A DNA stretch of 64,000 nucleotides from Acidipropionibacterium virtanenii (GTDB lineage: Bacteria; Actinomycetota; Actinomycetes; Propionibacteriales; Propionibacteriaceae), in NCBI RefSeq assembly GCF_003325455.1, contig NZ_CP025198.1, positions 558,001 to 622,000 of the forward strand, in the 5' to 3' direction. Below the pieces are notes generated by a model, which was not told the DNA's origin, made no database searches, and was given only the letters and a program-made list of their open reading frames with translations. Below are positions 11,202 to 30,469 of the stretch, piece by piece (the first letter of the stretch is position 1; each line of letters starts with the position of its first letter). Both the position numbers and the translations under genes were made by a program.

Positions 11202-12607
11202 TCGTCAATGAAGGGCTCTCCGGTAAGGGGAGCGACACAGCTGGTTCGGGGCGGCGCACTGCTCGGAACCGACGCCTGAACCAGGGCTCCCCAATGAGGG
11301 GAGCGACTGCCAAACAAGTTCTCACTGCGGCAACGGCCTGCCTGCCTCAACGAAGGGCTCCTCGAAGAAGAGGAGCGACGAACTGCCGCGCAGCCCAGTC
11401 CTCGGTGTCGGTGCCGCCTCAACGAAGGGCTCCCCGGTAAAGGGGAGCAACCTGGCACCTGGCGTCAAAACGCTCGAGGGACTTCAGCCTCAACGAAGGG
11501 CTCCTCAATGAAGAGGAACGACGTGATTCCCATGGTGCTGGGCGACCTCAAGCCCGAGCCTTAACGAAGGGCTCCCCGGTAAAGGGGAGCGACTCCGTGC
11601 GACCGTCCTGCTGAACCGACCGGTAAATGCCTCAACGAAGGGCTCCCCGGCAAAGGGGAGCGACGCGGGGTCGGGGTGGGGCAGCATCTGGTCGGCGCGG
11701 TGGCCTCAACGAAGGGCTCCCCGGCAAAGGGGAGCGACATCAGTTCCGTGCGGGACTGCGGCATGGGGTCGGCGCCTCAACGAAGGGCTCCCCGGCAAAG
11801 GGGAGCGACGTGTAGCCCAGGGCGTCCTCGTGGTCGCTGACCGCGCCTCAACGAAGGGCTCCCCGGCAAAGGGGAGCGACCGAGACGCTGCACACCGCCG
11901 ATCTGGCCGCCCGACGCGCCTCAACGAAGGGCTCCCCGGCAAAGGGGAGCGACTGGTCGGTGCTGCAATCCCCTCCCGCACCCTCCTCACGCCTCAACGA
12001 AGGGCTCCCCGGCAAAGGGGAGCGACGCGATGGCTGGTGCTAATCCCAGGCGATATCACCTAGCCTCAACGAAGGGCTCCCCGGCAAAGGGGAGCGACAT
12101 GAAGGCCCGCTGCGCCATCCGCCGCGTCCCGAACTCCAAGCCTCAACGAAGGGCTCCCCGGCAAAGGGGAGCGACAATCCTCTTGCCCAGTTCAAGCAAG
12201 GAATGATGCAGCCTCAACGAAGGGCTCCCCGGCAAAGGGGAGCGACGTGTGAGCTAACAAAGGTGGTTCTTGATAAGTGGTTGCCTCAACGAAGGGCTCC
12301 CCGGCAAAGGGGAGCGACTTGTCGACTGCGACCTTGCGGTTGGTGCGCCGCGGGCCTCAACGAAGGGCTCCCCGGCAAAGGGGAGCGACGGATCGCATCG
12401 ATGATCCGAGCCCGCAGCGCCTCCCCGCCTCAACGAAGGGCTCCCCGGCAAAGGGGAGCGACCGGCGATCTCCTGCTCCATGCGCGCCACATCGGTCTGG
12501 CCTCAACGAAGGGCTCCCCGGCAAAGGGGAGCGACCAGCCGGGCTGGTGGTGGTTGTCGCAGGCGGGCGGTGCCTCAACGAAGGGCTCCCCGGCAAAGGG
12601 GAGCGAC
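11202..12607 (-). CRISPR. CRISPR array, leader-distal segment (20 repeats, six degenerate)
   Basis: Twenty 36-bp repeats with spacers of about 33-39 bp. On the + strand each begins GCCTCAACGAAGGGC and ends GGGGAGCGAC. Repeats from 11629 onward are identical; the six before it (near 11202, 11274, 11344, 11416, 11487 and 11558) carry substitutions or short deletions. Decay at this end, together with the leader and cas genes at the other end, puts transcription on the minus strand. Several degenerate copies keep the hairpin through paired changes (for example CTCCTC with GAGGAG at 11344-11379). The segment is cut off from the rest of the array by an IS21-family element. Confidence 0.97.
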
Positions 12608-12611
12608 TAGG
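12606..12611. repeat. Left target-site duplication of the IS element (ACTAGG)
   Basis: The six bases directly left of the element's TGAATATT terminus equal the six at 15212-15217. The first two bases are the last two of the CRISPR repeat ending at 12607, so the insertion point is the repeat-spacer junction. Confidence 0.85.
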
Positions 12612-12729
12612 TGAATATTCGCGTACTTGAAGGCCGGTGGTTCGTGCCTTTGGGAACCAGTCCTGGTGCGTGTGGGGGCCGGGGCTGGCATGCATCGGGA
12701 CCACCCGCTCCGACCCCCATGCGGGTAGG

Positions 12730-15217: not shown

Positions 15218-16585
15218 CGCACCATGTGGCAGCGTCATGCAGGTCCAGGGCGGCCTCAACGAAGGGCTCCCCGGCAAAGGGGAGCGACACGACGCGGTCG
15301 TGCAGATGGCTGCCACCGACCGGCCTCAACGAAGGGCTCCCCGGCAAAGGGGAGCGACACGGTGGAATGGTGACGTCCGATGATCTCACCATCGGCCTCA
15401 ACGAAGGGCTCCCCGGCAAAGGGGAGCGACATGGAGGACAAGACTAAGAAGCACATCACCATTCAGCCTCAACGAAGGGCTCCCCGGCAAAGGGGAGCGA
15501 CTTGCTTCCATGTTCTTCCTTCTTTCACTTGACGGGGCTGCCTCAACGAAGGGCTCCCCGGCAAAGGGGAGCGACCCGATATCATGCCATACTTCTTGGC
15601 CCAATTACCGCCTCAACGAAGGGCTCCCCGGCAAAGGGGAGCGACTAGCAGTAATATAGGAACCATTCAAAGTTCCCACAGCCTCAACGAAGGGCTCCCC
15701 GGCAAAGGGGAGCGACATGCTGCGAGGCGGCATCTGAATGGCAGCACGAGAAGCCTCAACGAAGGGCTCCCCGGCAAAGGGGAGCGACCAGTTCTTCTCC
15801 TTCTCGCCGTCGCCCCACGCCTTGCCTCAACGAAGGGCTCCCCGGCAAAGGAGAGCGACGGGCGTGACCGTGTGGGCCAACCCGGACGATATCGGCCTCA
15901 ACGAAGGGCTCCCCGGCAAAGGGGAGCGACCGGCCAGACCCATCTGGATCAGCCGCTGCTCACCGTCGCCTCAACGAAGGGCTCCCCGGCAAAGGGGAGC
16001 GACTCTTGGTGAGCGGCTGGAGGTTGATCTGGGTGGTGGCCTCAACGAAGGGCTCCCCGGCAAAGGGGAGCGACCACACGTCGCGGGTCTGCCCGTTCGG
16101 CAGGGTCAGGGGGCCTCAACGAAGGGCTCCCCGGCAAAGGGGAGCGACTGTCTATCCCCGCGGGTTTCCGGCCGATCTTCCGGAAGCCTCAACGAAGGGC
16201 TCCCCGGCAAAGGGGAGCGACCCGGCGAATTCCTCGTCGACTACGTGCGCGCGGTCGGGCCTCAACGAAGGGCTCCCCGGCAAAGGGGAGCGACACCAGC
16301 CCCGCTACAACATGTTCGACCGGTGGATGCCTCAACGAAGGGCTCCCCGGCAAAGGGGAGCGACCCGCCGGACTCACGGGTCACCCTGCCGTCCGGTCGC
16401 GTGTCGCCTCAACGAAGGGCTCCCCGGCAAAGGGGAGCGACACAGATCCGGCGAGACAGTACCGATTCCTGCTCACCGCCTCAACGAAGGGCTCCCCGGC
16501 AAAGGGGAGCGACCAGGAGCGTCAGCCAGGTGACGTAGAAGATCAGCGCGCCTCAACGAAGGGCTCCCCGGCAAAGGGGAGCGAC

Positions 16586-16689
16586 CCCCCGCCCCGCCGT
16601 TGGCGGTGGAGAGTCCCCCGCCTCAACGAAGGGCTCCCCGGCAAAGGGGAGCGACCCCCCGCCCCGCCGTTGGCGGTGGAGAGTCCCCC
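16586..16689. repeat. Tandem duplicate spacer
   Basis: The 34-bp spacer at 16586-16619 is repeated exactly at 16656-16689, with one repeat between. This is a 70-bp unit duplication, most simply explained by slippage or unequal recombination, not by two identical acquisitions. Confidence 0.93.
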
Positions 16690-17664
16690 GCCTCAACGAA
16701 GGGCTCCCCGGCAAAGGGGAGCGACGAGCCGCTGGTCGATGCGGCGGCGCAGCGCGCCCGCGCCTCAACGAAGGGCTCCCCGGCAAAGGGGAGCGACCGG
16801 CGGGGCAACACGGGACATGGCTAGGCGAGGCCGGGCCTCAACGAAGGGCTCCCCGGCAAAGGGGAGCGACTCCGAGGTGCTGCCCTCCATCCGCAAGACC
16901 GGCTCGCCTCAACGAAGGGCTTCCCGGCAAAGGGGAGCGACCGAACTGTGGTGTGAAGGGCTCCGAATTCGGTTTGCCTCAACGAAGGGCTCCCCGGCAA
17001 AGGGGAGCGACTGGACTCTTCCGCTGACCGCGGACCTCGGCACCATCCCCGCCTCAACGAAGGGCTCCCCGGCAAAGGGGAGCGACGAAGGCACGGGTCG
17101 ACATCATTGCGGCCCAGCGCGGGCCTCAACGAAGGGCTCCCCGGCAAAGGGGAGCGACAGATCGGCATGGAAGGGCTCAAATGCTGGACTCCCGGCCTCA
17201 ACGAAGGGCTCCCCGGCAAAGGGGAGCGACGGGCGCGTTCGGGGTCGTCGACCCGGGCGAGGCGCCGGCCTCAACGAAGGGCTCCCCGGCAAAGGGGAGC
17301 GACGTCCAGGGGCTCCTTGCATTCGTGTCTAATCTGTTCTGCCTCAACGAAGGGCTCCCCGGCAAAGGGGAGCGACAACCCCGGGTCGGTCTCCTCGATC
17401 AGGAAGGACCTGCCTCAACGAAGGGCTCCCCGGCAAAGGAGAGCGACTTTCGTTGATTCGGGTAACCAGGAAAAATATAAGGGCCTCAACGAAGGGCTCC
17501 CCGGCAAAGGGGAGCGACCGGACGTGAGTAGCCTGGCGGAGTCCGAGGCAGGAAGCCTCAACGAAGGGCTCCCCGGCAAAGGGGAGCGACGACATGCCAG
17601 GTCCCAGGAGACACTTCTCCCGTGATCTGCCTCAACGAAGGGCTCCCCGGCAAAGGGGAGCGAC

Positions 17665-18132
17665 GACCGGAACGGATGCGACCTCATCCACTGACTTGAT
17701 GCCTCAACGAAGGGCTCCCCGGCAAAGGGGAGCGACCCGGATCGTCAAATCCGATTCCGACATTGATGGAGAGGCCTCAACGAAGGGCTCCCCGGCAAAG
17801 GGGAGCGACGAGCGGCGAGCGCTACAAGGTGAAGGCGGCGAACCGCCTCAACGAAGGGCTCCCCGGCAAAGGGGAGCGACGGTCCCCAGCCGAAGCGTCG
17901 AGGGTCTGCTCGACTCGCCTCAACGAAGGGCTCCCCGGCAAAGGGGAGCGACGACCGGAACGGATGCGACCTCATCCACTGACTTGATGCCTCAACGAAG
18001 GGCTCCCCGGCAAAGGGGAGCGACCCGGATCGTCAAATCCGATTCCGACATTGATGGAGAGGCCTCAACGAAGGGCTCCCCGGCAAAGGGGAGCGACGAG
18101 CGGCGAGCGCTACAAGGTGAAGGCGGCGAACC
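17665..18132. repeat. Duplicated four-unit block of the CRISPR array
   Basis: Spacers at 17665, 17737 and 17810 recur in the same order at 17953, 18025 and 18098. The spacer at 17881 separates the two sets. The period is 288 bp, that is four repeat-spacer units, so a four-unit segment was duplicated in tandem and the fourth spacer of the second copy is replaced or lost at the junction. Confidence 0.93.
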
Positions 18133-20799
18133 GCCTCAACGAAGGGCTCCCCGGCAAAGGGGAGCGACCCGGGCGGTACGGCTGTGAAGACGTGCGCCTG
18201 CGGCCTCAACGAAGGGCTCCCCGGCAAAGGGGAGCGACCTTTGGTTTTTCCGAGTGTGTGCTGGCCGCCGAAGCCTCAACGAAGGGCTCCCCGGCAAAGG
18301 GGAGCGACTTCCCGGAACGCCTCGGCGCCAGCACGTGCACCTCGTTGCCTCAACGAAGGGCTCCCCGGCAAAGGGGAGCGACGGGCTTCACGTCGGCCCA
18401 CGCGAAGACGATGTTGCTGCCTCAACGAAGGGCTCCCCGGCAAAGGGGAGCGACGGATCCGCAAGAACAAGGTGAGCACGACTCAGCGTGAGCCTCAACG
18501 AAGGGCTCCCCGGCAAAGGGGAGCGACTCCTTCGGGTGGTTCGTCCTGCTGACATGGTCCATGGCCTCAACGAAGGGCTCCCCGGCAAAGGGGAGCGACT
18601 GGCCTGACGCCGACCTCACCGCCACACAGCAGCGGCCTCAACGAAGGGCTCCCCGGCAAAGGGGAGCGACGGTTCGGGCCTGCCAGCGCTCCACGGGTTC
18701 TCCTAGGAGCCTCAACGAAGGGCTCCCCGGCAAAGGGGAGCGACCGTATCGGAGCGTCTGCACCAGTGCACGCTTGGCACGGCCTCAACGAAGGGCTCCC
18801 CGGCAAAGGGGAGCGACTTCCCGCCCGTCAAGATACCCGGATTCCGTAAGGGCGGGCCTCAACGAAGGGCTCCCCGGCAAAGGGGAGCGACACCGTTCAT
18901 CGCAGGTCCTCCTCCCCCAAGATGATCGGGCCTCAACGAAGGGCTCCCCGGCAAAGGGGAGCGACTTCCGGGGGGACATCGGCCAGATCCGTGACGACGT
19001 GCGCAGCCTCAACGAAGGGCTCCCCGGCAAAGGGGAGCGACCACCTGACTGCTCATCGAGCCCGTCCTTTCGCCGCGCCTCAACGAAGGGCTCCCCGGCA
19101 AAGGGGAGCGACCAGCAGGGACGCGATCACCGGGGCTAGTGCGGTCAGCCTCAACGAAGGGCTCCCCGGCAAAGGGGAGCGACGCGTGATGGGAAGGCCG
19201 TGCCCGTGCTGCCGTCCGCGCCTCAACGAAGGGCTCCCCGGCAAAGGGGAGCGACCAGGGATGAAACTGTCATCCGATTCCCCGCACACGCAGATGCCTC
19301 AACGAAGGGCTCCCCGGCAAAGGGGAGCGACGGAATCTCATGACAATCTCGACCGGTGACGAGAACCAGCCTCAACGAAGGGCTCCCCGGCAAAGGGGAG
19401 CGACACGCACTGGAGGCACTGCACCCTACCCGGGTGCTCATGCCTCAACGAAGGGCTCCCCGGCAAAGGGGAGCGACCCCGTGCGAGCGTCCTTGGAGCG
19501 GCGGCCGATCATGCCTCAACGAAGGGCTCCCCGGCAAAGGGGAGCGACATGCTGCTGCCGCCTGCTCGTCGTCAGCCTCAGGTGTCAGCCTCAACGAAGG
19601 GCTCCCCGGCAAAGGGGAGCGACCAAGGTCTACCAGCTCGCCCTTGATGGTTTCCTCGGCCTCAACGAAGGGCTCCCCGGCAAAGGGGAGCGACATCCGG
19701 GAATTGGGGGGCTGACCGGCCAAACCGGACTTTTGCCTCAACGAAGGGCTCCCCGGCAAAGGGGAGCGACGTCAAGCGACCGGAGGGAGCGGCTGCCCAA
19801 GGGTTGGGGCCTCAACGAAGGGCTCCCCGGCAAAGGGGAGCGACCTACTCGGTCTGGTGCAAGGCCAGCACCGACAGCGCGCCGCCTCAACGAAGGGCTC
19901 CCCGGCAAAGGGGAGCGACCTGCAGCCAGTAGCAGGCGTCCTGGGGTTCGGCGAGGATGCCTCAACGAAGGGCTCCCCGGCAAAGGGGAGCGACCTGGCT
20001 ATCTCCCCGAACGTCATGCATGCGGGCAAGCCTCAACGAAGGGCTCCCCGGCAAAGGGGAGCGACCGTCGATCGCATCATCAGCGACGTCAGTCGATGAT
20101 GTGCCTCAACGAAGGGCTCCCCGGCAAAGGGGAGCGACGGCGCGTGCCAACAGCGCAGCCTCTCGACCTTCCGGCCGCCTCAACGAAGGGCTCCCCGGCA
20201 AAGGGGAGCGACTGTGGGTCAACGCTGCCGGACGCGCCAACCACTGCCTCCAGCCTCAACGAAGGGCTCCCCGGCAAAGGGGAGCGACGGCCATGTCGTC
20301 CACCATCTCAGCGACCGTCTCGGAGCCTCAACGAAGGGCTCCCCGGCAAAGGGGAGCGACTGGCCACTGCCGCGCAGACCATTCCCTCCGTGCAGGCCTC
20401 AACGAAGGGCTCCCCGGCAAAGGGGAGCGACGTTCCAATTCATCGAGCCGATGCCCACGGGATAGGTGGCCTCAACGAAGGGCTCCCCGGCAAAGGGGAG
20501 CGACCCGGAGTACCGGGCTGGGGGTTCCAACGGCCTGCCCGGCCTCAACGAAGGGCTCCCCGGCAAAGGGGAGCGACACCCACAACAGGACGGTCGGGAT
20601 CAAGGTCCGCGCGCCTCAACGAAGGGCTCCCCGGCAAAGGGGAGCGACGTGAGGTCTTAGGGTCGTCGGGATTCGGCAGCATGTTGGGGGCCTCAACGAA
20701 GGGCTCCCCGGCAAAGGGGAGCGACGGGCAGGACTCCTCGAAGCGCTGGGAATGGTCCACCAAGCCTCAACGAAGGGCTCCCCGGCAAAGGGGAGCGAC

Positions 20800-20984
20800 A
20801 GCGGTCTCGCGGAGCGGGTCCTGACAAGCAGTCCAGCACCCTCTCCGCGAGAGTCCATCGTAGCGCTGCACTGCCCGCGCACCTCGGTGGCTCCTGAACT
20901 CCCGGCATCCATCCACTGACAAGGCCGGATGAAGGCGCGAGTGGTTACCGGGAATCCGCGGAGCGGGGGACCTCTCGCATGGGG
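20800..20984 (-). promoter_or_regulatory. CRISPR leader
   Basis: A 185-bp non-coding stretch between the cas2 stop and the first repeat. A 10-bp perfect inverted repeat (TCTCGCGGAG at 20805-20814 and CTCCGCGAGA at 20843-20852) sits immediately next to the first repeat. A third copy of the core CGCGGAG lies at 20957-20963, within an 11-bp match to 20808-20818. A possible -10 element TACGAT precedes the repeats on the minus strand, but no good -35 was seen. It should hold the array promoter and the signals for polarised spacer integration. Confidence 0.75.
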
Positions 20985-21284
20985 TCAGATGATCATCGAC
21001 CCGTCTCCGACGATGTAGCGGGAGTGCCCCAACCATGTCACAGCCCGGTCATCCGCCGTCTTTGAGAGACCAAGGTCGCTGACGAGCACGGAGTCCTGAT
21101 CGCGGTCCATGATGTCCTCCAGCTCACGCTGGAGGACGAGCACATGGCTGGGCGAGCAGTCGACCATGAAGACACTGAATTGAACTCTCAATCCGAACCG
21201 CTTGAGAGTCACAGCCATGTGGCCCCGTCGCTTGTCATCGGGGACGTCGTAGGCGATGAGATATCGATGACTGTCCTGTCTCAT
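20985..21284 (-). CDS. cas2: CRISPR integration protein Cas2
   Basis: 99 residues, normal Cas2 length. The ferredoxin-like fold starts YLIAYDVPDDKRR, with the conserved Asp of the first strand. Cas2 forms the bridge of the Cas1-Cas2 integrase that inserts new spacers at the leader end. Its start overlaps the cas4-cas1 stop by 4 bp, and it is the last cas gene before the leader. Confidence 0.96.
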   Translation of the reverse strand: MRQDSHRYLIAYDVPDDKRRGHMAVTLKRFGLRVQFSVFMVDCSPSHVLVLQRELEDIMDRDQDSVLVSDLGLSKTADDRAVTWLGHSRYIVGDGSMII

Positions 21285-22885
21285 CGGACTGTCATTCCCT
21301 TGTACTCATTCCGTGTGCCGTCCACGACTCCCAGGATGATCCGAGCCTGCACTTCGATCGCTCGGCGCCACGAGACCGTGTAGCCGAAGCTGGGATGGGA
21401 GATCTCGGTGGTCACCCTGCGCTCGTAGGCGGAGACGATGGCATTCCGGCCCTGAGTGGAGAGACGCGAGTCGCCCAAGGTGTGCGAGAACATATCCGTC
21501 GTGAGGGCACCGTTGTTGATGCAGGTGAGGACCACTGAGTCTGCGATCGGCGCGCGGAACTCCTCCATCAGGTCCAGGGCGAGAGCCGGCTTGTTCCTGC
21601 TCGGGGAGTGGAGAAACCCTGCGTGCGGATCAAGACCACAGGCGGCCAGCGCCCGGATGCAGTCGGACAGGAGCAAGCTGTAGGTGAAGTTCATCGCGGC
21701 ATTCAGCGGATCGGTGGCCCCTCGACCATGCCGGCCCGGCCATGTGTTCAAGAACGCCCGCGCCTCGGCGCCCTTGAGCATGGACGGCAACCCCGAGAAG
21801 TAGATCTGGGCGGCGCGGCCTTCCAGGGCGAACACCTCGGGCAGAGAGGGCATCGTCTCGGTCGCCCGTGCCAAGGCTCTCAGTTCGGTGACCAGATCGG
21901 GCCGATCACCGTTCCGGCGGATCATTGTGGCCTGATTCCCTATCTTTGCTCGGATGATCTGCTGGGCGATCGGCAGAGAGCCGAGTTCAGACATCACATG
22001 CTGATGGACCCGAGCCTGACCGTTCGGCGAATCGGCGCTTGAGGCCCAGCCGATGACGCGGCCCCGGCCACTGCACCACACCACAGTCAGACGCCGCCAG
22101 AGCATCTCCCGGATGAGGGCACTCGACAGGTCCACGTTGCCGTGGACAACGATCCCACACACCTTCTCCAGTGGAACGCTGGCGAGTTCCTCGCCGTTCT
22201 TCGACACGGTGACTCGCCCCTGTCTAAGCGATCCACGAGCGCCCGGAGTCATGACGTGCAGGATCGTCCCATCAGGATCGGAGACCGAAATACTCCTCGC
22301 CTTCTGGCCTTCCATATGACGGTTCTCGTCCGGGAGGCAGACGGTGGCGTGTGAGCAGCCCACGCATCGAGGATCGTCAAGGAGTGGTTTGGGGGCCTGA
22401 GCGGCGCCGATCAGGTTACGAGTGCTCTGAACCCATTCGCGGCACTCCTGTCGCGCGGCATCGTCGATGATGATGGGAATCTGAGTGTGATGGTTGGTGA
22501 AGTACACGCCGGCGCCGGTGACGCGATGGCCCATCTCCTCAAGGCAGATGACTTGGGCGATCACCTGGATCCGCTGTGACTCGGTGATCAAAGCCCGCCT
22601 TCGTGACGGCGTCGACTTGTACTCCACAATTTCCAGTGACTGATCATCCTGCTCTTTGACGACGTCGCAGCGGCCGGTGAGGCCCAGTTCCTCACTGTGG
22701 ATGAGCATCGCTCGTTCTGCGCCGGGACGAGACTCGGAGGCGTTGTCGACGCGCTTGTGAGCCATCGTCCCGGCGGTGATCGCGAAACTGTCCACCTGCT
22801 CTCCTTGGGCCTCGATCCAGGCCCGGCGAGGGCAGAAGACGGTGTGTGCGATCAGGCTGATTGGAATCGTGTCATCTGAGTCCAT
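21281..22885 (-). CDS. cas4-cas1: Cas4-Cas1 fusion protein (type I-G adaptation)
   Basis: 534 residues. The N-terminal ~190 residues are a Cas4 nuclease: CPRR near the start, RecB-type GRCDVV...EYKS, and a cysteine cluster (CVGC...VC) that would bind an iron-sulfur centre. The rest is Cas1, with VHGNVDLSS in the N-terminal beta domain and DPLNAAMN, GFLHSP and LALDLMEEFR carrying the active-site His and Asp. Such fusions are typical of type I-U/I-G; in Geobacter they select PAM-flanked prespacers and trim them. The start overlaps the csb3 end by 34 bp. Confidence 0.95.
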   Translation of the reverse strand: MDSDDTIPISLIAHTVFCPRRAWIEAQGEQVDSFAITAGTMAHKRVDNASESRPGAERAMLIHSEELGLTGRCDVVKEQDDQSLEIVEYKSTPSRRRALITESQRIQVIAQVICLEEMGHRVTGAGVYFTNHHTQIPIIIDDAARQECREWVQSTRNLIGAAQAPKPLLDDPRCVGCSHATVCLPDENRHMEGQKARSISVSDPDGTILHVMTPGARGSLRQGRVTVSKNGEELASVPLEKVCGIVVHGNVDLSSALIREMLWRRLTVVWCSGRGRVIGWASSADSPNGQARVHQHVMSELGSLPIAQQIIRAKIGNQATMIRRNGDRPDLVTELRALARATETMPSLPEVFALEGRAAQIYFSGLPSMLKGAEARAFLNTWPGRHGRGATDPLNAAMNFTYSLLLSDCIRALAACGLDPHAGFLHSPSRNKPALALDLMEEFRAPIADSVVLTCINNGALTTDMFSHTLGDSRLSTQGRNAIVSAYERRVTTEISHPSFGYTVSWRRAIEVQARIILGVVDGTRNEYKGMTVR

Positions 22886-23871
22886 GGAGAAAAGTATTCC
22901 AACGGATGGAACTCTCCGCTGAGAATCATGCGTTCCGGTGCGCTAGAACTGCCACCTTTGTGGACCGTGAAATCGCAGGCGCCGATAACCCCCATTAGCG
23001 GTAGCTCGAGCAGTGCCGCTGAGACCCTCTCCTCGTCTGGTGACGGTAAGCCATTGACAGCCTGGCTGGCCACGACAGCTCTCCATGCTGCTGGCGACAC
23101 CATACGGTCCAGCACTGGAATCAGCGCCCGTTTCGTGTGGAGCGTTCTCAGTGGCGAGGCGCACGCCGTGGCGCTGACTCTGCTGACAGCCGGAACAAGG
23201 GCGAAGCCGCTGATCCCCCACAGCCCACACCATGCCAGTACGTCGTCGGCAGGCCCGGGTCGAGTGAGGCCCGTCGAGGTCCGAGACTCCGGACTGTTCT
23301 TGCCAACGGTGTCTGTGACGGACGCCCCTGTCAGCCCCTCAATGATCGACAAGGTCGAACGATTGGCGACGACGTCAGCCAACGGTGCCAGACGCTTCCC
23401 GACGAACTCCTCGCCGCGGTTCCTGGTCTTCATCTCCCATCTCGATGCGGCGCGGTCAGGTTGGAGTTCATTATTGTGGACGACCCAGTATCCAGGTTCT
23501 CCAAGATTTGAAAGAAAGAGCGCGTCCAGCTCGGTGAGGTCCGATCCGAGGAACTCCTCACGACGACTCTCAAGGTCGATCCATCCCGCGGTACTCCTGG
23601 GAGGCTTGATCCTGGGGCTGAACAACCCTGTTGCACTGTCAGCACCCTTGGCCTGAACCCACGACCCTTCGTCGGCATGGCGAGTCGCGTGAGCCTTGAC
23701 CGCTTCCCCGGCATCAGGCCCGTTCCAGGTGACAACGGCTTCGGCGGCGCCCTCGACGGTCCAGCCAAGGCGCACGCGCTCGGCTCCGGCCTCCTCGAGT
23801 ATTCCGGCCAGCCCGATCATTGCGAAGTGGGTCATGGCGCTGTTGAGCCCTCCGGAGATGACGATCTTCAT
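22852..23871 (-). CDS. csb3: Csb3-type Cascade subunit (Cas8-like, type I-G/I-U)
   Basis: About 339 residues starting MKIVISGGLNSAMTHFA at 23871, with GGAGGG just upstream and a 4-bp overlap with the cas3 stop. It sits in the place where type I-U loci of the Geobacter sort encode Csb3 (GSU0052-like). No Csx17 gene is present in the operon, so this protein is the best candidate for the Cas8-like large subunit that recognises the PAM. I see no catalytic motif. The call rests on position, size and N-terminal resemblance, so it is less secure than its neighbours. Confidence 0.7.
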   Translation of the reverse strand: MKIVISGGLNSAMTHFAMIGLAGILEEAGAERVRLGWTVEGAAEAVVTWNGPDAGEAVKAHATRHADEGSWVQAKGADSATGLFSPRIKPPRSTAGWIDLESRREEFLGSDLTELDALFLSNLGEPGYWVVHNNELQPDRAASRWEMKTRNRGEEFVGKRLAPLADVVANRSTLSIIEGLTGASVTDTVGKNSPESRTSTGLTRPGPADDVLAWCGLWGISGFALVPAVSRVSATACASPLRTLHTKRALIPVLDRMVSPAAWRAVVASQAVNGLPSPDEERVSAALLELPLMGVIGACDFTVHKGGSSSAPERMILSGEFHPLEYFSPWTQMTRFQSA

Positions 23872-26498
23872 GATCCCTCCTTGGAGACGCGGCAGTCGGC
23901 TGCGCGCAGCACTGCTTCGAGGTAGCAGCATGTCCAGGCGCCGAGGCGCCAACTCGTACGGCTCATGAGTGAGCACCATTCCCCGCTGACGAACAGGTCC
24001 ATGATGCGTTCCTTGAGTGCTTCGTCATCGCAGTCATTGATCAGCGACGGTGCATCGAGTTGGGGGAGGACTCGTCCGTGCCCGTGGCTTGTTCCAATGA
24101 GCCGAGCGACCAACTCCGGGTCGTTGCTCTCTTCAATGACCGGCCATGCGACGGCCACCGACCGCAGTTCATGACGCCAGCCTCTTGGTAGTCCTCCGGA
24201 CCATCTCCTTCGCGACGCTGCCTGGGCACTCCGCGCAGGGCTCTTCGCGAGAACTGGGGCGTCGTTCGGGGCATTGAGCCGGTACCTCTGGAATCGCTGG
24301 TCGGACTTGCCGTCGTCGTGATGGAGTCCTGCCACAGACAGGGCCTCCCGGGCCTCCGAGGCAAGCCCGATGGAGTCTGCCAGGTTGGTGGCGCGATCCG
24401 CGACGCCTTCTTGATGGTCGGCCAATGTCACCAGATCTCCGGACCTCGTCCACAGCTGGCGGATCGATTCGTTGTCCTCAATCGCGCCGGGGGGACGCAC
24501 GACAATCCAGGCGAGTCTGACACCTTCCACGACATCGGGGCCCCTAGTGACCACCCCGATACCGCCGGAGCGCAGGAACTCTTCCTGGGCATCGTCATCA
24601 TCGAGACCACAGAGATCTGTGAGCCAGTGACTTTCCCGATCGCCATCCATGATGACCTGGGTGCCCACGGCGCCCCACCCGGTTTCCAGATCACCTTCGG
24701 GTCGAGTGGCGTCGTCGACCACTACCCCTTTGCGAGTCACTGCGTGGCCTGTGTCAATGAAGACCACGTCCCCACTACGGATGTCGACTGTGTCGTCATC
24801 AGACTTGACCACGCTGCTCACTTCGTCATTCCGCAAGACAAAGGCCCTGGCATGAGATCCGTTACCCGTGAGGATCCCCAAGACCACCTGCCGGAGCCTC
24901 CAGAGGGTGACAGGGAAGACTTCGTCCTGGATAGGTGAGGTGGCGTCCAGAAGTGGCAACACCAAAGCGTCGTCGTCGGGTAGGGGACCACGAATCACGA
25001 GTCCGCCCTCGAGCTGATCGGGGCGGAGTGAGTCCCGGATCCACAGTTCCAGCTCCTCGTCCGCGAGCAACGTGTCTGCGGTCGCCTCCCACCGCATAGC
25101 GTCGCCCGGGTGGGGGAGTTTCACGATCTCCCTCTCTGGGGACTTGGACGGCGGGGGAACATCCATGACGTGCTGGGGTCTGGCGTCCCCGGTACCGGTG
25201 AGCTGAGCCAACCAGGAATCTCCGTTACGGAGATCCGACTCCACGTAGGGGAGTTGATCCTTGACGGCTGACTCATCGGGGCCGATCACGGTGATCGGAC
25301 CATCGTGCCTGGAGCCCTTTCGGTTCACGCGTCCGAAGCGTTGGGCAAGGCTGTCGGCCGGGGCCAGCTCGGTGAGCAACCCGACGAAGTCGACGTCGAT
25401 TCCGACCTCGACGGTCTGAGTGGCGACCAGGAACTGAGGTGATTCACGGTCCTGGCGTCCGGCGATCCCGAACAGATCCGGGAACTGCGCCTTCAGGCGT
25501 GCCAGGTCCATCGGTCGCATCGGGCCGACCCAGCATGGGCAGTTGTCGCCGAGTTCCTCGGCGAGCCTCAGCGCGGTATTGACGTTGTTAACGATGCAGC
25601 CGATCGTGCCGCCGGTGCGGGTCTCGCGAAGCAATCGTGCCTCAGTCGCAAGAGTTGCGAGGTACTTCGCCGTGGCCTTTCGGCCGTTCCAATCCGGTGA
25701 GCGGACGATCCGAACGGGCTTGGGCCGAGTCATGCGTGGCTCGAGGCCCGGATACTCGAGATCCTCGGCGGAGATGCCGATCTCTGTGCCGCCATTGTCG
25801 GTCCGTGCCGTTGCCGACGACTCAACGACCTGGAGGCCCGGTACCCCGAGGGTTGGGGATGTCTTGGCAACGTACCGAGAGACCCAACGCGCTGTCCCGA
25901 GAAGCTGTCTCGAGAGATGCGCCTCATCAATGACGACGACCGAGTCCATCCCCAGCAGACCTGCCTCTCTTGGGCGAGCGGCCCTACTGGTTCCGTAGCC
26001 GCGCATGAGAAGCCGGCTGCCCCACATGTCTGGGGTGGCGCAGATCACCGCACACGCGCTCGGATCGTCGATCCAGGTCCGGTCCGAGGCGATACCACCA
26101 CGGAGATTGGCGAGGATGACGGGACCGGAGTCCGGGGCGATAGTGATGGACGCCAGGGCTGCTGTCATTTCCTGCGCGAGCGGATCGGCCGAGGTCGTCA
26201 GCCAGTCCAGAACACGCTGGGCCCGGTCGGCCTGGGAGTCGACAAGCGCTCGTCGATCGACGACCACGCACAGACGCCGGGGAAGCCTCGGGCCGGACCC
26301 GGCGGCGCTCAGAGCAGCCAGGAAGATGTGGGCCTCGACCACGGCGCTTTTCCCGGACCCAGTGGGTGCCGTGATGGCGTCGGGCCATCGTCCTTGTTCG
26401 AAAATGGTGTCGACCAGTCGAACCTGCCATGGGAATGGTTCGTTATGGTCGTTGATCTCCGCGAAGAATCGTGGAAAATCAGAAATGGTGAGCGTCAT
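23868..26498 (-). CDS. cas3: Cas3 helicase-nuclease with C-terminal HD domain
   Basis: 876 residues. The SF2 helicase comes first, with Walker A APTGSGKS (residues 44-51), IDEAH (190-194), TQTVEVGIDVD and the motif VI-like QRFGRVNRKG. The HD nuclease is C-terminal, with ADHQEGVADRA and HHDDGK near residues 725-735. This helicase-then-HD order is the opposite of most Cas3 proteins and is characteristic of type I-U/I-G. It unwinds and degrades target DNA after Cascade binding. It overlaps both neighbours by 4 bp, consistent with one operon. Confidence 0.96.
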   Translation of the reverse strand: MTLTISDFPRFFAEINDHNEPFPWQVRLVDTIFEQGRWPDAITAPTGSGKSAVVEAHIFLAALSAAGSGPRLPRRLCVVVDRRALVDSQADRAQRVLDWLTTSADPLAQEMTAALASITIAPDSGPVILANLRGGIASDRTWIDDPSACAVICATPDMWGSRLLMRGYGTSRAARPREAGLLGMDSVVVIDEAHLSRQLLGTARWVSRYVAKTSPTLGVPGLQVVESSATARTDNGGTEIGISAEDLEYPGLEPRMTRPKPVRIVRSPDWNGRKATAKYLATLATEARLLRETRTGGTIGCIVNNVNTALRLAEELGDNCPCWVGPMRPMDLARLKAQFPDLFGIAGRQDRESPQFLVATQTVEVGIDVDFVGLLTELAPADSLAQRFGRVNRKGSRHDGPITVIGPDESAVKDQLPYVESDLRNGDSWLAQLTGTGDARPQHVMDVPPPSKSPEREIVKLPHPGDAMRWEATADTLLADEELELWIRDSLRPDQLEGGLVIRGPLPDDDALVLPLLDATSPIQDEVFPVTLWRLRQVVLGILTGNGSHARAFVLRNDEVSSVVKSDDDTVDIRSGDVVFIDTGHAVTRKGVVVDDATRPEGDLETGWGAVGTQVIMDGDRESHWLTDLCGLDDDDAQEEFLRSGGIGVVTRGPDVVEGVRLAWIVVRPPGAIEDNESIRQLWTRSGDLVTLADHQEGVADRATNLADSIGLASEAREALSVAGLHHDDGKSDQRFQRYRLNAPNDAPVLAKSPARSAQAASRRRWSGGLPRGWRHELRSVAVAWPVIEESNDPELVARLIGTSHGHGRVLPQLDAPSLINDCDDEALKERIMDLFVSGEWCSLMSRTSWRLGAWTCCYLEAVLRAADCRVSKEGS

Positions 26499-28069
26499 GA
26501 CTCCTCCGGAGTGTCGACGGGGACAAGCAGGCCTCCGCCCAGATGCCGTGACTGGCCGAGGCTGATGAGTGCTCGATTCCCGACCAGATGGCCCAGCTCA
26601 AATTCAGCGCTGTATGGCTGCACCGCGCCGATTGCCTTCGGTGCCTTGTGCACATACCGGTCGACCCGCGAATCACTGATGCGATGGGTCGAAAGCACTC
26701 GCACGGCCAGGGACTTGTCCGTCACCGCTTGGACCATTGCCCAGTAGTCCCGCCTCGGCAGATCCGGTAGATGATCCCTGAACACATGGAACAGGGACAG
26801 TAGGGCAGCCTCCTCGAACCCCCATCGCCCAAGGTCCGGATGGTCATTCTGACGCCGGGTCTCGGGCACCAGGCCTCTTGCACTGCGCCAAGTACGCCGC
26901 CACCCAGAGCGAACCTCCGGCCAGAAGTCATGCAGGCCGATCAGCGATGGAGACCCGAGCTTCAAGTCCTGCCCGGATCCGCTCTGAGTGCGCATCCAGA
27001 CACGCAACGTCGGAGCATCGAGAGCGCGGAGGATCTGTGCCTGATCCGCCGGTTCAAGACCTGCTGGCAGGAGGATCATGAGTGCACCATTGCTGAACTC
27101 GTCGGCGCTTGGGCCGGTCCCGTGACGATCCGCCATGAAGCTCGAGGGAACGTACTGGATGGCGACTCGATTCGCCGGGTTCCGCACACCTCGCGGAAAG
27201 GCTCCAGTGACGCTGGCCGGTGCGGAGTCTCCCATTCGAGACACCAGCATCCGATGTGTCGCCACACACCAGTCGACGACCTCCTCGGGACGCAGAGCGC
27301 GTTCTACCGGAATGGCGAATGCGAATGGCCACGGGTCCGGTGAGACAGGACGAGTCGGTACTTCGTACTGGAGCACCTGCAGCGCGGCGCGGGGGATCGG
27401 TGATCCCGAGGTACGCTCGGTCTGCCTCGCCTTGTCATTCGCCTTGGTCGGGAATTTTGTGGGATGCTCCCTTTCCCATGCGCGCTCGAGCTCATCAAGT
27501 CGCCCGGGCGCGGGAGTACGCACTGAGATTCCCCTCGGATGGAGTTCGCTGGGTTCCGAGATGAGTTTGTGGGTTGTCTCGATGGGCTCGATGGTCAGCA
27601 CGACGGGGGTGTCGGACTCACCCAGACACGAGACGTCACCACACAGACGCCCGATCGTCTCATGCACGTGTGAGGGTGCCTCATCCCAGAACCAGCCGAC
27701 CGGTCCGGCTAGCGCCGTAGCTGTGCTGACCGTGCGACCGGACTTCTTGATTCGGGGGGCGTTGCTCTTCGGGGGTTTTTCGAGCGTGCCTTCATCCCTG
27801 TAACTGGTGACCGAGGAGTATGCCGGGACGTACTCCGGCACCATCAGTTCGGTCGGCGGATGATGCTCGAGCCAGTTCAGCGCGGCGGCCGACTCGGATG
27901 AGATTCGCAGCTGGCCTTTTATGGGGTCTGCCGCTGTGCCGTTGCCCGCAGCGTTGATAAGGGCGGAATACAACCGAGCCGTATCAGGCAGTCGTGACGG
28001 TGAGCCGTCTTCCAAGTGGCCCTGGAACATCCCGAGTGGGAAGCGGGCTCTGATGGTCAGCGGAGGCAT
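26495..28069 (-). CDS. csb2: Csb2 (Cas5-Cas6 fusion, GSU0054 family)
   Basis: 524 residues from ATG at 28069 (MPPLTIRARFPLGMFQGH), two bases after the csb1 stop. The longer frame would overlap csb1, so this start is preferred. The Csb2 family combines a Cas5-like N-terminal part, which caps the crRNA 5' handle, with a Cas6-like C-terminal part that cuts the repeat RNA. Histidines suited to RNA cleavage exist, but I cannot assign the catalytic one. It supplies pre-crRNA processing in this locus, as no separate cas6 gene is seen. Confidence 0.9.
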   Translation of the reverse strand: MPPLTIRARFPLGMFQGHLEDGSPSRLPDTARLYSALINAAGNGTAADPIKGQLRISSESAAALNWLEHHPPTELMVPEYVPAYSSVTSYRDEGTLEKPPKSNAPRIKKSGRTVSTATALAGPVGWFWDEAPSHVHETIGRLCGDVSCLGESDTPVVLTIEPIETTHKLISEPSELHPRGISVRTPAPGRLDELERAWEREHPTKFPTKANDKARQTERTSGSPIPRAALQVLQYEVPTRPVSPDPWPFAFAIPVERALRPEEVVDWCVATHRMLVSRMGDSAPASVTGAFPRGVRNPANRVAIQYVPSSFMADRHGTGPSADEFSNGALMILLPAGLEPADQAQILRALDAPTLRVWMRTQSGSGQDLKLGSPSLIGLHDFWPEVRSGWRRTWRSARGLVPETRRQNDHPDLGRWGFEEAALLSLFHVFRDHLPDLPRRDYWAMVQAVTDKSLAVRVLSTHRISDSRVDRYVHKAPKAIGAVQPYSAEFELGHLVGNRALISLGQSRHLGGGLLVPVDTPEES

Positions 28070-28071
28070 TC

Positions 28072-29280
28072 TCAGGCCTCGTCCGCATCGGCGTCGATTC
28101 CGCCGAGAATGATCGGGTTCCCCGTCACTTCGAACACCTGACCTTCCCAACGGATCCCCGCCTTCGTCTCTGCCGCATCGATGGCCTCGGCGAGCAGAGG
28201 TCCGGTGACGTCGCGGGTCAGCGGGGCGATCTCACGCTGGGTTCCTCGACGGCCGTCAAGCGCAACGCGTGTCTCGCCTGCCTCACGGAGATCGCAGTTC
28301 GCACGCAGATTGAGTTCTTCGTCGCCCAGGGCGATGCCGTGGAGAGCCAGAGCCGCAAGCAGCGCGCGGCAGGCGACATTGGCTTCGTTGTCTGTGCCGA
28401 ACCGGATCTGTCGCAGCGCGCTGAAGGTGAGGACGTGAGACCGGATGATGGAGCTGCACGAGACCAGACCGAGTGCGTCCAGGCTGGGGGGAATGGATCC
28501 AAGGCCGAGTACCGATGCCGACGTTTTCCCGGATTTGGCGGCCTTGGCCTTCTTCTTGATGCCTTCGACAGTGTTGGCGGACATCTCGGACTCCTGGGTC
28601 TTCAAGAGCGTCAACATGTCCTTCTCGGTCAGCTGGACGCTGGGAGCCAAGTCATCTTTCCGGGCTGCTCCGCGGGGAGAGGGCCTGCGCCCGTGCTCGC
28701 TCTGATCGGCGAGGACCCCAATGATCTCACCCACCGCGCAGGATCGGTATCTGGCCTGATGAGCCTTCCGGGTGGAATCCCACGAGCCGAGCACGAGACT
28801 GACAGGGCTGAGTTCGAGGAGCGCGGTCGCGTCGGCGGTTGTGGCATTTCGCGCAGCGACATATTCAGGGGCCTCGGTGACCGGTTTGCCGTCGTGGGAG
28901 CCGAAGCGGATGTGGCCGTCGGTGTAACGGTGGGGCAACTGGTAGTCGAACGATGTGAGCTCCATATGGCCCTCGTAGGTGACACGGATGCTCGGCATGC
29001 GAGTGAGCGCCGCGTCGCCCTCCTGAATGGCGAGAGCGATCGCGTCCTCGATGCGGTTGATCTGGCTGGCTTTCCCATCAATGACGACGGCGCTCTTCGC
29101 TTCACCGTCGATGTATCGAGTCTCGTAGGCATATGTGCCGTTGCTGCCGCGAACGTAGCGGGCCGGTGCGATGCCGGCGTGGGGGCCGGCGGCCGGGATG
29201 AGGTCGGTGATGGAGGAGAGGACGGTTGCGCCACCGGCGCGGCATGCCGACTCAACGTCGGTGTAGGTGAGGGTGTTCAT
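28072..29280 (-). CDS. csb1: Csb1 (Cas7 backbone subunit, GSU0053 family)
   Basis: 402 residues, first gene of the cas operon. It starts MNTLTYTDVESACRAGG, with AAAGG upstream. The family forms the helical Cas7 backbone along the crRNA. Typical Csb1 features are visible, such as the ...SPVSLVLGSWDSTRK segment and the late SSIIRSHVLTFSALRQIRF. A Lys/Ala-rich insert (EGIKKKAKAAKSGK) lies near the middle. The 150-bp gap upstream contains no obvious promoter, which raises the possibility that transcription enters from the promoter at 29728-29756. Confidence 0.93.
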   Translation of the reverse strand: MNTLTYTDVESACRAGGATVLSSITDLIPAAGPHAGIAPARYVRGSNGTYAYETRYIDGEAKSAVVIDGKASQINRIEDAIALAIQEGDAALTRMPSIRVTYEGHMELTSFDYQLPHRYTDGHIRFGSHDGKPVTEAPEYVAARNATTADATALLELSPVSLVLGSWDSTRKAHQARYRSCAVGEIIGVLADQSEHGRRPSPRGAARKDDLAPSVQLTEKDMLTLLKTQESEMSANTVEGIKKKAKAAKSGKTSASVLGLGSIPPSLDALGLVSCSSIIRSHVLTFSALRQIRFGTDNEANVACRALLAALALHGIALGDEELNLRANCDLREAGETRVALDGRRGTQREIAPLTRDVTGPLLAEAIDAAETKAGIRWEGQVFEVTGNPIILGGIDADADEA

Positions 29281-29430
29281 TCTGGAACCTTTCTTCGTTG
29301 AAGGTGTTGCCGGCCGGGATGGCCTGCAAGTCTCAGTGTGGACGGGGGGTCCGACAGTTTTCTCTCTAAGAGACCAGATGGTCGTACGACGGATGCGAAC
29401 TCATGGATGATGGGGATCGATGATCAGTCG

Positions 29431-29688
29431 TTACTGCCGTGTCGCGGTGCAGTGGCGTACGAACCGTTCGATGTGTCGTGCTTGATCATCGGCGCTTTGG
29501 GGTGTGCCGCCGATGCTCCTCTGATGCCGCGTGTGCTCTGGTCCGGGCCCTGGACAGTAGATGCGCACACCGTGTCCCTGTTCTCGGACCGTCCATCCGT
29601 GATCGACGGCGGCCAGTACCGCGTCAGCGACGGCTGGTTTGAGGCGTCGACGAATCTCGCGTCGATCGAGAACTCTCCCTGACCCCAT
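29431..29688 (-). CDS. Small HicA-like (dsRBD-fold) protein
   Basis: About 85 residues from ATG at 29688, which has AGGGG seven bases upstream; an ATG six codons earlier is possible. The order of elements (an N-terminal helix, DHGWTVREQGHGVRIYCPG, then SIGGTPQSADDQARHIERF) is like the small double-stranded RNA-binding fold of HicA-type proteins, which commonly read GW.V...GH.....P......IPGTP. HicA toxins are mRNA interferases with a catalytic His; an equivalent His occurs here in GHG. No HicB partner is adjacent, and whether it is toxic is unknown. It lies between a good promoter and csb1 on the same strand. Confidence 0.6.
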   Translation of the reverse strand: MGSGRVLDRREIRRRLKPAVADAVLAAVDHGWTVREQGHGVRIYCPGPGPEHTRHQRSIGGTPQSADDQARHIERFVRHCTATRQ

Positions 29689-29727: not shown

Positions 29728-29756
29728 ATGCTACGGGCTCCGGCGTCAAAGTGCAA
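29728..29756 (-). promoter_or_regulatory. Sigma-70-type promoter upstream of the HicA-like gene and cas operon
   Basis: On the minus strand TTGCAC (29756-29751) and TAGCAT (29733-29728) are separated by exactly 17 bp, the best promoter match in the cas upstream region. The start would fall near 29720, just upstream of the HicA-like gene. The -35 box overlaps the protospacer-like sequence at 29760-29776 if that is extended to normal spacer length. Confidence 0.65.
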
Positions 29757-29759
29757 CTC

Positions 29760-29776
29760 AAACGGGAAAAACCCAT
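29760..29776 (-). promoter_or_regulatory. Protospacer-like target next to the promoter
   Basis: The minus strand reads ATGGGTTTTTCCCGTTT from 29776 to 29760. It matches the spacer-like sequence beside the repeat fragment at 29835-29851 in 16 of 17 positions, with the mismatch at nucleotide 6. The upstream flank is GTAC, so the PAM position would be TAC. A full-length target would cover the -35 box. Confidence 0.5.
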
Positions 29777-29834
29777 GTACTCTGTTTGGACGCAAGGGCG
29801 GCCCGTGGCCGCGATCAGACTGAAGCGCAGCTGG

Positions 29835-29905
29835 AAACGGGAAAACCCCATGCCTCAACGAAGGGCCGCGCCACGGTCACGCTACCTCAACAAGCTTGGA
29901 GCGAG
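29835..29905 (-). ncRNA. Candidate crRNA-like guide (repeat fragments plus pseudo-spacer)
   Basis: On the minus strand, 29866-29852 equals the last 15 bases of the CRISPR repeat (GCCCTTCGTTGAGGC), including the whole 5'-handle region. It is followed directly by ATGGGGTTTTCCCGTTT (29851-29835), which nearly matches the promoter-side sequence at 29776-29760. A second, more decayed repeat-like piece lies upstream at 29905-29884 (CTCGCTCC...GTTGAGG). This layout is like CreR or CreA RNAs, in which a degenerate repeat and short spacer let Cascade repress a nearby promoter. No promoter of its own was found; readthrough from the HTH gene, which ends 20 bp upstream, would suffice. Function is inference. 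Confidence 0.5.
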
Positions 29906-29925: not shown

Positions 29926-30405
29926 CTAGCGTCCGACAAGGCTTGATCTCATATCGGCGATCAATCTGTCCCCCTCCTCGGCATCATCCAGGGAGAGTGA
30001 GCAGCACTCGTCGTAGCCCGTCTTTCCGGTGCGTTGCAGCCATTTGTTGACGTCGCGCCAGACCCATATCGGTCCTGTGGTGGACCAGTCGAACTCGGTC
30101 GGAAATGCTGTGTCGCCCGTGACCTGCTTCGTCCATTTCGCGACCGCCGGCCTGGAGACTCCCGCCCGCGCAGCGATCTCAGAGGCGGAGACCAGGTCCA
30201 GGCGAAGGCGGCGCGGCTGGACGCCCAAGGTCTCAAGCATGATGTGAGCAGCGCGGATGGCACTCAAGGGGGCATCGGCGGTCTGGTCGACGTGGGCGAA
30301 CTGGAGGCGCCCCATCTGAGACCAGTCGATGCCGTTCTCGGCCAGTCGGTCGATGGTGTCGTCGTCGATGGGGTTGATGACGAAGGTCAGCTCGTACGTG
30401 CTCAT
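29926..30405 (-). CDS. HTH DNA-binding protein next to the cas locus
   Basis: About 159 residues from ATG at 30405, which has AGGGGA upstream. A beta-rich N-terminal part (STYELTFVINPIDDDTIDRLAENG) is followed by a helix-turn-helix at roughly residues 70-95 (SASEIAARAGVSRPAVAKWTKQ) and a WVWRDVNKWL segment. This architecture is common in small actinobacterial MerR/AlpA-like regulators of unknown role. It is transcribed toward the repeat-like fragments and the cas operon and could regulate either. It could also be an unrelated resident gene. Confidence 0.75.
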   Translation of the reverse strand: MSTYELTFVINPIDDDTIDRLAENGIDWSQMGRLQFAHVDQTADAPLSAIRAAHIMLETLGVQPRRLRLDLVSASEIAARAGVSRPAVAKWTKQVTGDTAFPTEFDWSTTGPIWVWRDVNKWLQRTGKTGYDECCSLSLDDAEEGDRLIADMRSSLVGR

Positions 30406-30453
30406 GAATTCCCCTGTCATTTGCCGAGGGCGAGTGGCATGCCTGAAGCACCA

Positions 30454-30469
30454 GTTAATCACAGTTAAC
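30454..30469. promoter_or_regulatory. AGTTAA direct repeat, possible operator
   Basis: AT-rich motif AGTTAATCACAGTTAA-like, with the hexamer repeated at 10-bp spacing (one helical turn) and partial dyad symmetry, about 50 bp upstream of the HTH gene start. A self-regulation site is plausible but unproven. Confidence 0.3.

Follow-up and report, generated by a model that had tools for sequence, protein, structure and literature searches.

The window analysed here, a stretch of 64,000 nucleotides (nt) of Acidipropionibacterium virtanenii (contig NZ_CP025198.1, positions 558,001 to 622,000), carries a type I-G CRISPR-Cas locus (CRISPR, clustered regularly interspaced short palindromic repeats) in which Csb1, Csb2 (a Cas5-6 fusion), Cas3g, Cas8g, a Cas4-Cas1 fusion and Cas2 are all encoded beside arrays with 36-nt repeats. 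Upstream of csb1 lie a small HicA-like open reading frame (ORF) and a gene for a helix-turn-helix (HTH) protein, and between these two genes stands a repeat-like sequence, outside the arrays and adjoining the cas genes, whose spacer-like guide partly matches a site at a promoter facing the HicA-like ORF and the cas operon. From the sequence comparisons set out below, we suggest that the CRISPR machinery very probably acts here as a gene switch, holding down the toxin-like gene, the CRISPR genes, or both.

Read in the CRISPR RNA (crRNA) sense, the array repeat is GTCGCTCCCCTTTGCCGGGGAGCCCTTCGTTGAGGC (36 nt), and the 15 bases at minus 29866-29852, GCCCTTCGTTGAGGC, are identical to the 3' end of this type I-G repeat at 15 of 15 positions. 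The guide that follows, ATGGGGTTTTCCCGTTT (minus 29851-29835), agrees with ATGGGTTTTTCCCGTTT (minus 29776-29760) at 16 of 17 positions, the sole mismatch falling at guide position 6. Both observations had been made in the initial annotation of this DNA, and both were borne out by direct reading; a second, degenerate repeat, with a hairpin and CCTTGCG at minus 29813-29788, was absent from that account. Given this degenerate repeat after the guide, minus 29866-29788 is, as read from its bases, a minimal degenerate CRISPR unit organised as psiR1-psiS-psiR2, in the manner described for creA genes (PMC8501985). A repeat-like element of the CCTTCG type is found at an equal distance (+52 to +63) in the congener G004, Gordonia, G045 and Mycolicibacterium frederiksbergense. 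Type I-G Csb2 cleaves repeats a few bases 3' of the hairpin, leaving an 8-nt handle (PMC9638904), so the handle here would be GTTGAGGC. No further isolated exact copy of the repeat 3' end was found near csb1, and a search of the guide unit against Rfam gave no match. With up to one mismatch allowed, AAACGGGAAAANCCCAT occurs at two sites in the genome of 3,432,872 bases, namely the guide and the target, and the pair scored 15.7 against a median of 6.1 and a maximum of 12.2 when the 1.4-kb upstream region was shuffled. On the uniqueness of the 17-mer pair, these shuffle scores and the pairs of relatives, a chance match was rejected.

The promoter at the target was likewise confirmed by direct reading: it faces the HicA-like and cas genes, as had been claimed, and a 36-nt target (29776-29741) would span its -35 box. 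Not included in the earlier account was a 5' TAC protospacer adjacent motif (PAM) beside the target, at minus 29779-29777. The congener G004 has a promoter of equal geometry (TTGTCA-17-TAGGGT), and a -35/-10 promoter adjoins the target in several loci.

Table 1. Features of the type I-G locus and its upstream region, in window coordinates (aa, amino acids)
Feature	Position	Strand	Basis
psiR1, I-G repeat 3' end including the presumed 8-nt 5' handle GTTGAGGC	29852..29866	-	15/15 to array repeat
psiS, spacer-like guide, 38 nt; matching stretch is the first 17 nt (29851-29835)	29814..29851	-	16/17 to 29776-29760
psiR2, degenerate repeat, hairpin GCGGCC-ACG-GGCCGC then CCTTGCG	29788..29813	-	read directly
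PAM TAC of target	29777..29779	-	read directly; same as the clade's phage protospacers
Target, protospacer seed region of guide	29760..29776	-	16/17 match
Promoter, -35 TTGCAC (29756-29751), 17-nt spacer, -10 TAGCAT (29733-29728)	29728..29756	-	read directly; faces HicA-like and cas genes
HTH protein, PDC-M06B-like, upstream of guide	29926..30462	-	PADLOC PDLC04388 E=1.5e-7; orthologue 67% identical in G004
HicA-like ORF, PDC-M06A-like, candidate kept-down gene	29431..29688 (85 aa, conserved ATG); 91 aa from 29706	-	PADLOC PDLC04383 E=4.7e-7; 66% identical in G004
PafBC/RecA-NDp-like promoter element TGTCGGAC-N8-CACACT, 76 nt upstream of csb1 ATG	29335..29356	-	motif match
csb1 (cas7g)	28072..29280	-	TIGR02570, PF09617
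csb2 (cas5-6g, pre-crRNA nuclease)	26495..28150	-	TIGR02165, PADLOC Cas56g
cas3g	23868..26498	-	TIGR02621
cas8g-type subunit	22852..23979	-	PADLOC PDLC01374 E=1.5e-91
cas4g/cas1g fusion	21281..22885	-	NF049935, PF01867/PF01930
cas2	20985..21284	-	TIGR01573, PF09827
CRISPR array, 77 repeats	15253..20834	-	repeat positions and count
CRISPR array, 18 repeats, last ones degenerate	11344..12642	-	repeat positions and count

The PAM rule was tested independently of the guides by comparing the spacers of M. frederiksbergense, Gordonia and this genome's other array with phages. The 5' flank of the protospacer was TAC in at least one phage for eight of the nine spacers and TTC only for the ninth; one of the TAC protospacers belongs to a spacer of this genome's other (non-main) array, the rest to M. 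frederiksbergense and Gordonia. By this protospacer evidence TAC is the immune PAM of the clade, arrived at without recourse to the guides. The spacers of the window's main array matched no phage, and when same-family prophages were used as a PAM source the only strong match came from a spacer identical to part of a conserved gene of the host itself. This spacer, from one of the genome's own arrays, matches its own chromosome at 34 of 34 positions (G000:C1:1998104-1998138, locus L119) in a gene conserved across the family, and the self-match is presumably tolerated because its 5' flank is TCG and not TAC. Type I-G PAMs reported elsewhere are TAT in Bifidobacterium lactis (PMC12915315) and TTN in Thioalkalivibrio (PMC9638904).

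Co-conservation in relatives, the absence of which had been named in the initial annotation as refuting a guide, was examined, and the outcome spoke strongly for one. Homologues of csb1 were collected from named contigs and from whole-genome sequences at the level of the family, order and class, and also of G708's family and of G945's genus; the region upstream of each csb1 was searched for an isolated repeat 3' end, and the next 17 bases were then compared nearby. In the first five loci (the window, G004, Gordonia desulfuricans, G045 and M. frederiksbergense), with no condition set on the PAM, the best match always lay on the csb1 coding strand behind TAC. Altogether, 14 of 49 upstream regions had both a handle (at most two mismatches) and a guide-target pair of at least 13/17, and all 14 targets had a TA/TT PAM and lay on the coding strand, where dinucleotide shuffles gave an expectation of 0.01. 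Where the handle was exact the pair was present in six of six regions, and among 16 control regions on the other side of csb1 none showed a coding-strand pair behind such a PAM. A likely guide in G073 (locus L042; three handle mismatches, TAC PAM) stands outside the 14, and a pair at L070 (13/17, CGA PAM) was judged to be due to chance.

Guide and target covary. In a matrix of 13 pairs, which takes in G073 with its weaker handle and G952 with three handle mismatches and leaves out L045, L055 and L063, a guide matched its own target at an average of 14.3 of 17 positions versus 5.5 of 17 across species. Between the window and G004 the guides differ at seven positions and the targets at eight, six of these being matched double changes, and each guide matches the other's target at only 9-10 of 17, while the flanking genes are orthologous (HTH 67% and HicA-like 66% identical). 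The effectors of type I systems leave positions 6 and 12 unpaired, and it is at these positions that 18 of the 35 mismatches fall (binomial p=1e-8). Some of the matrix pairs were initially detected by a scoring that was permissive at positions 6, 12 and 18, and a plain match-count search gave the same mismatch pattern. The earlier suggestion that a position 6 mismatch would be tolerable for a type I Cascade is thus supported, and co-conservation, PAM and mismatch pattern together speak for a type I-G guide of the CreR/CreA kind.

These comparisons bear on two readings that would deny the unit a guide function. The two 17-mers, 75 nt apart, repeat each other in the same direction and are partly palindromic (GGGTTTTTCCC), and an HTH gene adjoins them, so that they might reflect a chance similarity or a simple direct repeat, for example two operators bound by the HTH regulator, with no CRISPR connection. 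However, other genera carry unrelated 17-mers in the corresponding position behind the same repeat 3' end, with no HTH gene and with the clade PAM kept, and an operator pair would leave the repeat 3' end unexplained. Covariation already speaks against this reading; of all the readings considered we give this one the least credence. The unit could also be a decayed mini-CRISPR, a once-acquired self-targeting spacer that is tolerated as mostly unmatched and has no present function. Its repeats are degenerate, and elsewhere in this genome one spacer or more matches the chromosome over its full length beside a flank other than TAC. Yet 14 loci of many genera show target covariation, a retained PAM and mismatches at positions 6 and 12, and degenerate repeats are the rule in known CreA genes (PMC9458426, PMC8501985), which makes a relic very improbable.

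Some further loci deserve mention. A second I-G subgroup (L019, L044, L045, L050, L055 and L075), whose repeats end in CATTGCGGC in the members checked, has guide-target pairs upstream of csb1 with a TTN PAM; in L050 and L055 the target is upstream of the guide. About 240 nt upstream of csb1 in L042 (G073), the guide-targeted promoter and csb1 are separated by a 57-aa ORF whose ATG follows a purine-rich stretch; it may encode another small protein controlled by a guide.

What, then, is controlled in the window? The ORF behind the promoter is recognised by PADLOC as the A gene of PDC-M06, a two-gene phage-defence candidate, and its partner, PDC-M06B, is just upstream of the guide. The two genes are adjacent, as PDC-M06 demands, in an order unlike that of other genomes: PDC-M06A precedes PDC-M06B on one strand in nine genomes with a detectable HTH partner and in G027, so the order B, guide, A, cas represents a rearrangement. 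The designation of the protein as HicA-like, already used in the initial annotation, is backed by the PADLOC models for both genes and left without backing by Pfam and NCBIfam, neither of which gave a HicA family match. The predicted alpha-beta-beta-beta-alpha order agrees with the double-stranded RNA-binding domain-like fold of HicA. Against the model of an Arthrobacter phage HicA-like toxin in BFVD, the protein gave a probability of 0.98 and an E of 0.066, which is below significance, and against PDB neither sequence nor fold gave a significant match, which does not show that the fold differs. As there was no significant match in Pfam, NCBIfam or PDB, we use 'HicA-like' only as a name. No relatives of the protein were found in viral contigs at the sensitivity used.

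The initial annotation had left open whether the guide serves cas autoregulation or an addiction module with the HicA-like protein, and here the comparative data give a divided answer. In Gordonia, M. frederiksbergense, G045, G945, G953, G055, G021 and others, the target precedes csb1 by 100-220 nt and no convincing ORF intervenes, so those guides would be cas autorepressors of the CreR kind. Extended to the window, this would mean that the guide sends Cascade to repress the cas operon, that Cas levels track free Cascade and crRNA supply, and that the HicA-like ORF is a passenger first gene. The window promoter does face cas, and no good terminator was seen. Against this, the ORF that intervenes is conserved and belongs to a two-gene family of defence candidates, its partner flanks the guide, and in the window and G004 alike csb1 has a separate PafBC-like promoter 76 nt upstream. 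We consider such pure cas autorepression rather unlikely for the window, although it is the chief competitor of a toxin unit.

The separate promoter carries weight through its distribution. Its RecA-NDp-like motif, TGTCRG-N10-YANNNT, precedes csb1 by 67-178 nt in 9 of the 24 TAC-clade members (shuffles, 0.05), namely the window, L003, L035, L036, L037, L038, L041, L005 and L046, with G004 among them. PafBC acts through the RecA-NDp motif (PMC6789036), and the occurrence of the element suggests that the cas genes of its carriers are DNA-damage-inducible. Among the 22 clade members other than the window and G004, eight have a guide only, with the likely one of G073 included, seven the element only and none the two together (hypergeometric p about 0.02). 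The element is apparently an alternative to CreR-type guides. Guide and element occur together only in the window and G004, where the guide faces the HicA-like gene, and because of this we place control of the toxin-type gene ahead of pure cas autorepression here. We therefore think it probable that the window holds a CRISPR-repressed toxin unit resembling CreTA and CrePA; a toxin guard is favoured in this genus, and cas autoregulation in most other genera.

Several observations weigh against a toxin unit. The HicA-like protein lacks the family matches mentioned above. There is no clear terminator between its ORF and csb1, so the same promoter may drive cas. The HTH partner has been retained beside the guide, so control by CRISPR may be dispensable for the HicA-like protein. 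Most relatives have the cas promoter itself as the target and lack an intervening toxin gene, so that autorepression of cas is the reading to start from. RNA folding of the 96-nt unit is unexceptional (z -1).

A mechanism for such a toxin unit can be built on properties of the DNA itself: how the unit is laid out, the match of guide and target and their covariation, the PAM, the promoter and the order of the genes. The transcript of the unit would very probably be cleaved by Csb2 to give a crRNA-like RNA with a normal 8-nt handle, which would load type I-G Cascade and direct it to 29779-29741. The TAC PAM and the 17-nt match, with position 6 flipped out, should permit Cascade binding, and because the match stops at position 17, a full R-loop and Cas3 cutting should be prevented. 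Cascade sitting on the -35 box would repress transcription towards the HicA-like gene (PDC-M06A). Loss of Cascade, its titration by other crRNAs or its inhibition by an anti-CRISPR would open the promoter, and the HicA-like protein, whose toxicity we infer, would be made. A toxin-type gene would thus be held down by the CRISPR effector, as in CreTA and CrePA, and read-through may add cas autorepression.

Known systems resemble this arrangement in part. CreR, a crRNA-like autorepressor of cas (Liu et al. 2023, as cited in PMC13131331 and PMC12948488), is described as widespread in type I and V-A systems (PMC12737573); the types named for it in the account of PMC13131331 are I-B, I-E and V-A, not I-G, and the original description may include I-G. 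As far as these accounts describe it, CreR shares with the window an ectopic degenerate repeat with a short guide beside cas, a partial match to a PAM-flanked promoter and mismatches at flipped positions, and the loci of most relatives fit it fully by anatomy, whereas the window promoter belongs to a HicA-like ORF placed before cas. In CrePA (Shu et al. 2025, as described in PMC12737573), a crRNA-like RNA similarly directs Cascade to the promoter of a gene for a small toxin-type protein. In that description, however, a KilA-N domain and inhibition of FtsZ are typical of the known CreP, while the window protein is HicA-like with its own HTH partner, and the effector here is I-G. The type I-B CreTA of Halobacterium hubeiense and Haloarcula hispanica has the same psiR1-psiS-psiR2 layout (PMC8501985); in H. 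hubeiense it lies directly upstream of cas, and guide positions 1-5 and 7-11 of CreA pair with a PAM-flanked promoter, positions 6 and 12 being free (PMC8501985). It differs in that CreT is an RNA toxin, whereas the gene downstream in the window codes for a protein, and in that the window match extends to position 17. Finally, both window proteins are recognised as PDC-M06, but its usual A-then-B operon is replaced by B, guide, A, with transcription of A facing a CRISPR guide.

Tentatively, we can envisage that a PDC-M06 pair was split and wired to type I-G Cascade by its own guide, that phages disabling Cascade would release the toxin-type gene, and that in sister genera the same guide class became repressors of the cas promoter, replacing a DNA-damage promoter of the PafBC type; we hold this history to be plausible but somewhat short of an even chance. 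If guide control is real, RNA-guided self-regulation reaches type I-G across several actinobacterial genera, and its covarying pairs are detectable by simple computation. The pairs also offer naturally occurring data on the PAM and seed of an effector that has been little studied, with TAC in one clade and TTN in another, and the control of I-G cas genes becomes directly testable. A toxin unit in the window, if true, may represent a novel type of anti-CRISPR sensor that uses a HicA-like protein.

The arrays themselves have some features of their own. The large array (15253-20834) contains a duplicated spacer block, and the terminal repeats of the small array (11344-11593) are degenerate, with up to seven mismatches. 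An additional array of 66 repeats of the GGGCTCACCCCCGCATACGCGGGG type, presumably type I-E-like, lies elsewhere in the same genome (L149, G000:C1:1248000-1266000). In the array region of L037 (G170), a 1.3-kb stretch at about 15745-17009 is approximately 70% identical to human faecal phage contigs, and is possibly an insertion in or beside the array.
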